NCBI GenBank assembly: GCA_017541885.1
Contig: JAFXYF010000005.1
Span: forward strand, 71,835-135,834
DNA from: Bacilli bacterium
Lineage (GTDB): Bacteria > Bacillota_I > Bacilli_A > RF39 > UBA660
Length of the DNA: 64,000 bases
Reading direction: 5' to 3'
Of this stretch, positions 18,587 to 21,597 are shown one piece after another (within the stretch, counting starts at the first letter, position 1; each line of letters begins with the position of its first letter). A model generated the notes under the pieces. The model worked only from the letters and a program-made list of their open reading frames with translations, searched no databases and was not told the DNA's origin. Made by a program: the position numbers and the translations under genes.

Positions 18587-18594
18587 AGTATATG
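18587..18594 (-). promoter_or_regulatory. Sigma-E-like -10 element of spoIVA
   Basis: On the minus strand CATATACT fits the mother-cell sigma-E -10 pattern CATAYANT, 22 bp before the ATG. The spacer and upstream terminator leave no recognisable -35, so this rests on the -10 and on the known sigma-E control of spoIVA. Confidence 0.45.
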
Positions 18595-18603
18595 TTTAAG
18601 CTA

Positions 18604-18631
18604 AAAAAAAAGAACTAGTGTTCTTTTTTTA
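18604..18631. terminator. Terminator upstream of spoIVA
   Basis: AGAAC-TAGT-GTTCT stem flanked by A and T runs; it ends the unit of the zinc-ribbon gene and isolates spoIVA. Confidence 0.8.
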
Positions 18632-19576
18632 TTTATAAGATATAGATTTAATAATAATACTTTTTATCTCATTACAAGCATCTTTCTCACTTGAATCAAA
18701 TCTCATTTCATAGATTCTATTATCATCTTTATATTTCATTAAATAGAAATCTTGATAAGCATTTGTTTTTTCAAATGATCTTTGTAGCCATATAACTTTA
18801 TTTATTTCTACTTCTTTAATATCACTTTGTCTATATTTATTATGATTATTTGATATATCTACTAAATATTCTTCTTCATTTTTAGTCATATATTGACTAT
18901 AAATAGTTATATAACATTTCTTTTTATTCTTTTCATATGAGAAATGTTGATAGTTATTATAATTTGTTTTTATTTCTGCTTCTTTTGGAATAAAATAACT
19001 TAAATAATTGTTTTCTATAGAGTCTTTTGTAGCTTTGTCCATTGTTTTTATACCTTTAGATTGAAGTAGGGCAAGAATTATAAAATATAATAATATAATT
19101 AATATTATTAATCCAATATTTGTAGTGGGACTTGTTTGCTTTAGTTTTAATAATAATTCTTCTTTTGATAATTCTTGATTTTTCTTTTTTATTCTTTTTA
19201 TACTTGTTTTTACTTCTTCTAAATAATAATTATTAAAATTAATACCTAAATATAAATTAAAACATACTCTAAATATTATTCCTATATCTGGAGGTAGATA
19301 TTGATAAGACAAAATATAAATAACTAGAATTATAAAACTTTGAGCAAATAGTTTTCTATATAATAAATAGAATGGTCCTAGAAGTATTGCGAAGATTGAT
19401 ATTTTCTTTTCAAAAAGACTTATATCATCTCCTAAATAAGCGTTTAGATATTCATCATTTTTTATTTCTTTATTATACGAAAAACCCCAATTTTTATTGG
19501 AGTTTATTTTTTGACCGCATTTATTGCAATACTTTGCGTCTTCTTCTAGTTCATTTTTACATTTTGTACAAATCAT
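18629..19576 (-). CDS. Zinc-ribbon membrane protein
   Basis: 315 residues. The N-terminus is a zinc ribbon with two CxxC knuckles (CTKCKNEL, YCNKCGQ). Three or so membrane helices follow (FAILLGPFYLLY, FIILVIYILSY, LIILIILLYFIILALL), then a soluble C-terminal domain of about 140 residues, rich in Tyr, Asn and Lys (YITIYSQYMTKNEEEYLVDI, YEMRFDSSEKDACNEI). This layout resembles many Firmicutes zinc-ribbon membrane proteins with no known activity. It lies 5 bp after the repeat-protein gene, so the two are probably co-expressed next to spoIVA. Confidence 0.72.
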   Translation of the reverse strand: MICTKCKNELEEDAKYCNKCGQKINSNKNWGFSYNKEIKNDEYLNAYLGDDISLFEKKISIFAILLGPFYLLYRKLFAQSFIILVIYILSYQYLPPDIGIIFRVCFNLYLGINFNNYYLEEVKTSIKRIKKKNQELSKEELLLKLKQTSPTTNIGLIILIILLYFIILALLQSKGIKTMDKATKDSIENNYLSYFIPKEAEIKTNYNNYQHFSYEKNKKKCYITIYSQYMTKNEEEYLVDISNNHNKYRQSDIKEVEINKVIWLQRSFEKTNAYQDFYLMKYKDDNRIYEMRFDSSEKDACNEIKSIIIKSISYK

Positions 19577-19581
19577 TATTT

Positions 19582-21015
19582 TTAACCTCTTTTAGGAGCT
19601 ATTTGTTTTACGATTATATTTATATGACAACTTTCATTTTCTAATCCTTTGATTAGATCTACATCTTCTTCTGCAATCTCTTCATAGATTTCACCATTTA
19701 CTTTAATTCTATGAGGATTATCAATATAGAATCCTAATTCATTTAATATTTCATGGGCAATGAATAATTGTCCATTATTATTACAGATTAAAATATCATA
19801 ATCTTTTTTATTTACAACATATGTGTCAGCAATAATTATTTTTTTATCTATAAAGTGGAATAAATCATTTTCTGCTATTTCATAGCAAGGTTTATTCATA
19901 ATAGTATCTACTATTTGATCTCTTTGGCCGATTTCTTCTACTGGGATATATAATTTACCAGTGTTTGTATCTTTGTAGATTAATACTGTGCCTTGTTTTG
20001 TAGTAGTATGTTTTTCATAATAAGGCATTACTCTATCTCTGAAAGGTATTACTCTATCTCTGAATGGTATTACTCTATCTCTAAAAGGAATTATTCTATC
20101 TATGTATGGCATTACAATATCTTTAAACTCTTCTTTATTGAATGGTTTTGCGATTTTATTGAATTCTTTTTCTTCGTAAGGCATAACTTTTTCAAATAAA
20201 TTCTTTCTTTGTTTGAATTCATAGATTTGATCTACTACTTTATTAACAACATCTTCTTGTGGGAATTCTACTTTAGGAAAATCTTCTTTTTTTAGAGTAG
20301 TTGGTTTTAATAATTGTTCTACTCCATGATAATTTAATTCCTTTTCCACCTCTTTTAGTTCGTTTTCTGTTATTGAATAACAATTATAGCCATTTAAGAG
20401 AGTTGGAGTACCTTCAATTTCAATTCCATGACTTTTTAACATCTCATATACGTTTCTTCTAACATAATATTTTTTTGTTTGATAATCATAATAATATTCA
20501 AATAAATACTCAGCTGGTTTTATTTCATCATTTAATGCTACTTCTACTATTTTTCTTTTGAAGGCAACTTTATCTTTCTTTGTTTCTTCTTCTATTTTTT
20601 CTAGATCTTCTTCAGTTACATTACAACATGTTGTACCATTGATTGTTCTTTTACTTTTTGGTTCAATATTGTAACGTTGACATGTATTTTCAGTTACGTA
20701 TAGTTTGTTATCGTGATTAGTATCTTTATATACAGTGAAAGATAGAACTAACTGTAAATCAAAGATAGTTACTATATTTGGAATTAGATGAACTGCTTGT
20801 TCAGCTGATTCTTTATCGATAATTTCTAGGTCTTCTTCTGTTATTTTGTAGCATAAATTATCTTTTATTGTTTTATAGTCTTCTCTATCTCCTATATTAA
20901 AATGATCACATAGTTCTTTTATTATGTATAATCCATTTGATGTTTTATAGACATCATAAAAAGCAGTATCACGAATACCGTTTTCTTCTATTTCCCTTTT
21001 TAATTCTTCTTTCAT
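19582..21015 (-). CDS. Five-repeat protein of unknown function near spoIVA
   Basis: 477 residues with no signal peptide or membrane helix. It is built from five diverged repeats of about 55-80 residues. Each starts with a Tyr-rich hairpin (VYKTSNGLYI, VYKDTNHDNKLYV, YYDYQTKKYYV, IYKDTNTGKLYI, ILICNNNGQLFI) and ends with a Cys/Tyr plus acidic helix (CYKITEEDLEII, CCNVTEEDLEKI, CYSITENELKEV, CYEIAENDLFHF, YEEIAEEDVDLI). Between repeats 3 and 4 is a separate stretch of short units, IPFRDRV repeated. I do not recognise a family. The place between spoIVA and spoVIF suggests a spore coat or cortex role, which is inference. Confidence 0.8.
   Translation of the reverse strand: MKEELKREIEENGIRDTAFYDVYKTSNGLYIIKELCDHFNIGDREDYKTIKDNLCYKITEEDLEIIDKESAEQAVHLIPNIVTIFDLQLVLSFTVYKDTNHDNKLYVTENTCQRYNIEPKSKRTINGTTCCNVTEEDLEKIEEETKKDKVAFKRKIVEVALNDEIKPAEYLFEYYYDYQTKKYYVRRNVYEMLKSHGIEIEGTPTLLNGYNCYSITENELKEVEKELNYHGVEQLLKPTTLKKEDFPKVEFPQEDVVNKVVDQIYEFKQRKNLFEKVMPYEEKEFNKIAKPFNKEEFKDIVMPYIDRIIPFRDRVIPFRDRVIPFRDRVMPYYEKHTTTKQGTVLIYKDTNTGKLYIPVEEIGQRDQIVDTIMNKPCYEIAENDLFHFIDKKIIIADTYVVNKKDYDILICNNNGQLFIAHEILNELGFYIDNPHRIKVNGEIYEEIAEEDVDLIKGLENESCHINIIVKQIAPKRG
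20022..20115 (-). repeat. 21-bp tandem repeat inside the five-repeat gene
   Basis: About four copies of a 21-bp unit (plus-strand core TTACTCTATCTCTGAAAGG) encode the heptad IPFRDRV, with VMPYIDR and VMPYYEK variants at the edges. The third and fourth units carry base changes, so it is slowly decaying or under selection for the peptide. Confidence 0.85.
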
Positions 21016-21050
21016 CTTTCTACGCTCCCTACTATAATTTATTATATAAT

Positions 21051-21080
21051 AAAAAAGACTATAAATAAATAGTCTTTTTA
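21051..21080 (-). terminator. Terminator after spoVIF
   Basis: AAAAGACTA and TAGTCTTTT pair around TAAATAAA with flanking A and T runs; it overlaps the end of spoVIF and separates it from the repeat-protein gene. Confidence 0.85.
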
Positions 21081-21351: not shown

Positions 21352-21597
21352 TTATTTTCTTTTTCCTAATTGATTACACATTTTATTGAATTCATCCATA
21401 TTGATTAAACCTTTATTTAATCTATCTTGTAACATAGCAAATGCTCTGTCATTCATTTCATCTTTACTCATAACATTAGTATGTTGCATTACACGATTGT
21501 TTTGCATAATTCTTTCTGAGTCACTTAATGGATTTCCTTCACTACTTTTAATGAAGCTATTCTTTGGTTGTAGGTTTGTATTCTTTCCTATTATCAT
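21352..21597 (-). CDS. Small SHOCT-like protein
   Basis: 81 residues. The first half is polar and probably disordered. The last 30 residues (AFAMLQDRLNKGLINMDEF, then NKMCNQLGKRK) have the short SHOCT-type helical hairpin with an L.KG.I...EF pattern. The ATG overlaps the der stop by 4 bp (ATGA), so it is translationally coupled to der. Function unknown. Confidence 0.75.
   Translation of the reverse strand: MIIGKNTNLQPKNSFIKSSEGNPLSDSERIMQNNRVMQHTNVMSKDEMNDRAFAMLQDRLNKGLINMDEFNKMCNQLGKRK

Follow-up and report, generated by a model that had tools for sequence, protein, structure and literature searches.

The locus and its transcription

The window, that is the whole stretch of 64,000 nucleotides of DNA that was analysed, carries on its minus strand the gene order der, orf81, spoVIF, a gene for a protein of five repeated modules (the five-module gene), a gene for a zinc-ribbon membrane protein and spoIVA. 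The identities of the two spore neighbours were confirmed by TIGR02836 for spoIVA (1.5e-201) and PF14069 for SpoVIF (1.4e-20). The initial annotation placed the five-module gene between spoIVA and spoVIF and this is correct, but the gene is not directly next to spoIVA because the zinc-ribbon membrane gene intervenes in the minus-strand order. The features of the locus are as follows.

18589-18594, minus strand: CATATA site upstream of spoIVA, from upstream comparison
18629-19576, minus strand: gene for a zinc-ribbon and DUF2628-like membrane protein (Pfam sub-threshold matches to Zn_Ribbon_1 and DUF2628)
19582-21015, minus strand: five-module gene, an open reading frame of 477 aa with an ATG start; 17 further genomes of the genus carry an orthologue at this locus
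21041-21046, minus strand: -10-like TATAAT, 31 nt before the ATG, conserved among orthologues
21050-21079, minus strand: terminator hairpin and T-run (from folding), which separates spoVIF, whose end it overlaps, from the five-module gene

The five-module protein is acidic, with a net charge of -22 and modules of pI 4.5-5.9. No clear membrane segment was found in it (19-residue Kyte-Doolittle maximum 1.7), no signal peptide was noticed on inspection by eye and it has no enzyme signature. The zinc-ribbon membrane gene starts 5 bp past the stop codon, an operon-like spacing, and the two genes are probably co-transcribed. The membrane gene accompanies the five-module gene in several orthologous loci, with or without spore genes, including four genomes that have neither spoIVA nor SpoIIR, and is absent beside many other orthologues. 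It occurs once (L099) without the five-module gene. At the other end of the row, orf81 (21352-21597, minus strand) encodes an 81-aa protein, overlaps der by 4 bp and is conserved at this locus across the genus; its similarities to the SHOCT-like and Vps23-core families are sub-threshold only.

The terminator hairpin of spoVIF has a folding energy of -10.3 kcal/mol (z = -4.5, with none of 200 shuffles as good) and is visible in most orthologous loci. It was not listed by the consensus scan because its stem is poor in G-C pairs. The TATAAT was present upstream of all 18 orthologues, whether or not spore genes were present, at 28-43 nt before the start codon, while shuffles lead one to expect it at about 0.21 per sequence, or roughly one in five. 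The sequence CATANNNT was found in only one of the 18 upstream regions of the five-module gene but in 16 of 17 upstream regions of spoVIF, where TATAAT also occurs inside CATATAAT in 11. Upstream of spoIVA, TATAAT was found in 2/19 and CATA-type sequences were found instead. A weak hairpin and T-run before the CATATA site (18602-18626) was not significant (z = -0.8), and a general promoter scan of the region was uninformative, giving 41 hits where 43.5 were expected. Read from the sequence, the five-module gene is a separate transcription unit with a conserved TATAAT, and no sigma-E/K-type promoter of the kind to be expected for a spore protein was found before it. The Bacillus sigma factors are the basis for reading TATAAT as a sigma-A site and CATA-type sequences as sites of sporulation sigma factors. 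By this analogy, the results suggest sigma-A for the five-module gene and sporulation sigma factors for its spore neighbours.

Modules and linker of the five-module protein

A profile HMM detected five diverged modules of about 65 residues, and a linker with a motif array separates module 3 from module 4. The parts of the protein, all encoded on the minus strand, are listed from the N-terminus; module limits are from the HMM and AlphaFold2.

20773-20958, minus strand: module 1, residues 20-81, order beta-beta-alpha-beta-beta-alpha-beta
20548-20739, minus strand: module 2, residues 93-156
20320-20502, minus strand: module 3, residues 172-232
19993-20307, minus strand: linker, residues 237-341, mostly of low confidence in AlphaFold2, with predicted helices at 254-277 and 294-308
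20015-20187, minus strand: six copies of [VI][MI]P[YF]x[DE], of which five form a tandem array with a unit of 21 bp or 7 residues (TRF and own-genome scan)
19810-19986, minus strand: module 4, residues 344-402
19606-19800, minus strand: module 5, residues 406-470

As the seed of this first profile contained modules from the window, an independent second profile was built from the modules of two giant relatives (described below) and of a relative of about 580 aa, with the window and orthologue sequences left out. The independent profile matched the five-module protein with E = 3.6e-28; taken singly, modules 1-3 were significant while modules 4 and 5 gave weak matches only. AlphaFold2, used with 17 orthologues, predicted well folded modules that are flexibly joined (mean pLDDT 76.5, pTM 0.29), with pLDDT of about 80-95 in the modules and below 50 in most of the linker (residues 241-251, 278-293 and 301-340). 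A single module modelled with 44 relatives was predicted with a pLDDT of 94.3 and showed the same order of strands and helices as given above for module 1. The five diverged modules of the initial annotation are thereby borne out by a profile free of their own sequences and by a shared, confidently predicted fold.

The annotation's further statement that the protein fits no known family has also held. Pfam and NCBIfam gave no match above the curated cut-off for the protein or the module, and searching PDB sequences with the orthologue alignment found no relative. Foldseek gave no E < 0.05 against the PDB (whole model and module) or BFVD (module), and in fact no match below E 0.8; rows for LAGLIDADG and acetyl-CoA carboxylase were judged to be chance. 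VIA-align ranked domains of three groups highest, those of MutS (domain I), XPB and tRNA-splicing endonuclease; its best hit aligned 54 residues at an rmsd of 2.9 with Z 4.3, and all scores were at Z < 5, a level at which the tool warns of a mere common arrangement. No relatives of the five-module protein were found in IMG/VR (alignment A3), INPHARED or PLSDB and a phage or plasmid origin was rejected on these grounds; PHROG matches were scattered, single-member and 5e-6 or weaker. The module is without a family entry in the libraries searched and appears to be undescribed, the modular scaffold itself being a known kind of protein.

The linker is hypervariable among orthologues and repeats the [VI][MI]P[YF]x[DE] motif in several species. 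In the window, TRF gave 4.8 copies of 21 bp at 20022-20122, confirming the embedded IPFRDRV array that had been noticed earlier; the array reads VMPYIDRIIPFRDRVIPFRDRVIPFRDRVMPYYEK. A scan of the own genome with the back-translated motif gave 25 matches (six in the five-module gene, five in the giant and 14 singletons) where the control with the reversed motif gave 10, and the motif was clustered only in the five-module gene and the giant, whose stretch reads VMPYGDIVMPYGDIVMPYVEK...VMPFYDRVIPYVERP. The singleton carriers include a glycosyltransferase-looking large membrane protein and an acidic protein with coiled-coil-like character; each has a single copy and no array. Among the fetched loci, the ORFs of >= 300 aa with at least two copies of the motif were module proteins in 5/5 cases (P = 7.5e-6 against a background of 32 module proteins in 319 ORFs of >= 300 aa), the five being not fully independent because some are mutual orthologues. 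Other orthologues have alternative linker arrays (MPYIDTAPSVVDK, MPYNDxLSTVVDE and KLLGDQNVDIExIK) and some have none at all. The motif is missing from many orthologues (L032, L033, L036, L038 and L039) and is thus not essential to the family. These comparisons suggest that the array may be a docking peptide common to both paralogues, or may merely be an easily expanding repeat that they share. Mimicry of the FtsZ C-terminal peptide by IPFRDR was considered and rejected: the FtsZ of this genome ends in YEVPSFLRNRNY, with a different spacing.

Distribution, giants and the spore genes

The search with the module profile recovered a module family almost confined to one genus of uncultured gut Bacilli. 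The module profile was positive in 29 of the 39 genomes of the genus; outside it, weaker matches came from three genomes of the same family. Just one of these, G119, has a clear relative, a protein of 978 aa that carries a single module together with the C-terminal domain of the giants. A sample of 391 other genomes from across the phylum gave no match. With the full-length five-module protein, matches were found in 22 of 99 relatives, all within the genus of the window. The habitats of related MAGs, where stated, are yak rumen and sheep ileum.

Four proteins of the own genome contain the module, namely the five-module protein, a giant of 1818 aa and two further proteins of 338 aa (L108:6696-7712, with an orthologue in L111) and 146 aa (L109:6934-7374). 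Giants of 950-2300 aa lie beside division and wall genes in the genus, where smaller paralogues also occur. The giant of this genome is located as follows.

L107:12093-17549 (G000:C14 about 202,092-207,548): giant, 1818 aa, with five modules found, a motif array and a C-terminal domain of about 590 residues

It looks cytoplasmic, and about 21 kb separate its gene from ftsZ on the same contig; in a sister genome (L059) its orthologue is clustered with mraW, a PBP gene and a DivIC/FtsL-like gene. The C-terminal domain of the giants, which is without a known family name, was found in 11 of the 148 genera sampled in the family and, within the genus, in 28 of the 39 genomes. In the own genome its profile matched only the giant at C14 and not the five-module gene. 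By these profiles the five-module protein is a member of the module family but not a giant. Module number varies among family members and some lineages have shrunken copies of 153-290 aa. The modules would have expanded inside the genus, probably on the giants, with the five-module gene as an offshoot.

Two spore markers, spoIVA and SpoIIR, were searched over the 39 genomes of the genus and gave closely agreeing results. Six genomes without both spoIVA and spoIIR retain the five-module gene at the der locus (completeness: G003 95%, G008 93%, G010 84%, G015 94%, G022 74%, G026 93%); der is not visible in G026 because the gene copy sits at a contig end. In a tree of six neighbouring genes these genomes form four separate lineages, G003 with G008, G010 with G026, G015 and G022, each with spore-gene-bearing neighbours. 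Some deep nodes of this tree are weak, but support is good for the pairing of G022 with G005, in which the spore genes are present, and for the placing of G010 and G026 inside the clade of the window. By this tree, spoIVA and spoIIR were lost at least four separate times in the genus. At the loss loci (L040, L041, L033, L032, L043 and L050) spoIVA and spoVIF are cleanly deleted and the neighbouring genes stay; the contig of L032 ends just before the five-module gene, so that the spoVIF side is not seen.

Comparison of G003 with G008 gave dN/dS of 0.15 for the modules, 0.23 for the linker and 0.05 for der. The modules are therefore under purifying selection between two genomes that lack both markers, the whole-gene dN/dS being only moderate at 0.2-0.37. 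Conversely, 12 of the genomes inspected have spoIVA and spoVIF at this locus but no five-module gene. The gene was found in 12 of 29 SpoIIR-positive and 6 of 10 SpoIIR-negative genomes, which gives no association with SpoIIR across the 39 genomes (Fisher p = 0.46), although absences are less secure than presences because several of the genomes are incomplete. The gene is thus not restricted to genomes with these spore genes, and the co-occurrence with spoIVA that the initial annotation looked to fails in both directions.

Interpretation

The above results bear directly on the proposal of the initial annotation that the gene encodes a new spore structural protein. If the mother cell made the protein together with SpoIVA, for the spore coat or for another spore structure, this would explain the same-strand position between spoVIF and spoIVA, conserved in the genus where both are present, and the Tyr-rich hairpins and Cys residues would suit a coat protein. 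Against this, six genomes without spoIVA and SpoIIR, from at least four lineages, keep the gene, with a module dN/dS of 0.15 in the tested pair; the 12 spore-gene-bearing genomes above are without it; TATAAT stands upstream in 18/18 cases where the spore genes have CATA-type sites; and paralogues occur in the dcw cluster and elsewhere. A spore-coat role was rejected on distribution, upstream site and selection, and we consider a spore structural function of any kind unlikely. Binding of nucleic acid or of a small ligand by the modules, with the protein acting as a regulator or an RNA- or DNA-associated factor, is similarly improbable. The predicted fold is weakly like that of the MutS domain I, XPB and endonuclease group, with the best Z at 4.3, but all Z scores are below 5, the Foldseek E-values are above 0.8, and modules as acidic as these, in a protein of net charge -22, argue against it.

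A fast-evolving conflict or surface-interaction protein, in phage defence or between bacteria, would account for the restriction to one genus, the patchy presence, the variable number of domains and the hypervariable linker. Given the conserved syntenic position of orthologues at the der/spoVIF/spoIVA locus, the absence of phage or plasmid relatives from the collections searched and of any visible association with mobile elements, and a protein in which neither a clear membrane segment nor a signal peptide was noticed, this is a quite improbable reading. Finally, the gene might be left over from a repeat expansion of the giant and evolve neutrally, without a function of its own. The shrunken copies, one pair of which has a dN/dS of about 0.8 on a poor alignment, are consistent with this; dN/dS of 0.15-0.37 in full-length copies, the TATAAT before all 18 orthologues and the intact frames in the homology-search matches make it very unlikely indeed.

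Our preferred explanation, a tentative one with a little less than an even chance, is that the five-module protein serves vegetative cells as a cytoplasmic scaffold or adaptor and is related to the giant of the division locus. Since relatives without spore genes keep the gene, the protein probably has an everyday use as a scaffold in the cytoplasm and does not form part of the spore. The scaffold reading rests on the acidic beads, the flexible motif-bearing linker, the lack of an enzyme signature, the downstream membrane gene in some species and the paralogue in the division cluster; from these and the upstream site we infer sigma-A use, vegetative expression, a cytoplasmic site, a scaffold function and partners. 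On this reading the protein would be made during vegetative growth and work in the cytoplasm as an acidic string of beads and linker, its modules being lineage-specific interaction modules of about 65 residues. Close to the cell envelope, modules and linker motifs may dock on common partners, of which the giant could be one; in some species the zinc-ribbon membrane protein encoded 5 bp downstream could be another. The function must be dispensable, as 12 inspected genomes of the genus are without the gene at the locus. The link to division is positional only and concerns the giant and not the five-module gene. It is possible, though doubtful, that an undescribed module was multiplied in this one genus of gut Bacilli, giving a family of acidic scaffolds of about 150 to 2300 aa that in some species have a short docking motif in common and that include the giant of the division and wall cluster, and that these form a lineage-specific organiser of the envelope or septum outside sporulation.

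With the five-module gene comes a verified domain family that none of the searched libraries lists, and its position between spore genes clearly shows how a neighbourhood can mislead. The four or more losses of spore genes are natural experiments that separate it from sporulation, and the losses of spoIVA and spoIIR in this genus should be useful for sorting spore from non-spore genes. If the scaffold reading is true, small-genome gut Bacilli carry unrecognised large cytoplasmic scaffolds with a positional link to the division cluster.

Among known systems, SpoIVA and the coat morphogenetic proteins are chromosomal neighbours of the five-module protein where both are present, but they are unrelated in sequence, and the five-module gene has a different upstream site and is kept without spoIVA and SpoIIR. 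The likeness to MutS domain I, the XPB damage-recognition domain and the N-terminal domain of tRNA-splicing endonuclease lies in the predicted fold and is weak (Z about 3-4.3 for 50-63 residues), whereas no sequence similarity was found (2-11% identity in these rows) and the five-module protein is an acidic string of tandem beads without ATPase or nuclease domains. The dcw-cluster giants have the module in common with the five-module protein and are likewise acidic; in the giant of this genome five copies of the module were found, and it also repeats the [VI][MI]P[YF]x[DE] motif in an array, as the five-module protein does. They differ in having N-terminal repeats, coiled-coil-like regions and the C-terminal domain of about 590 residues, none of which the five-module protein has, and this C-terminal domain reaches more genera of the family than the module, which is hardly seen beyond its one genus.
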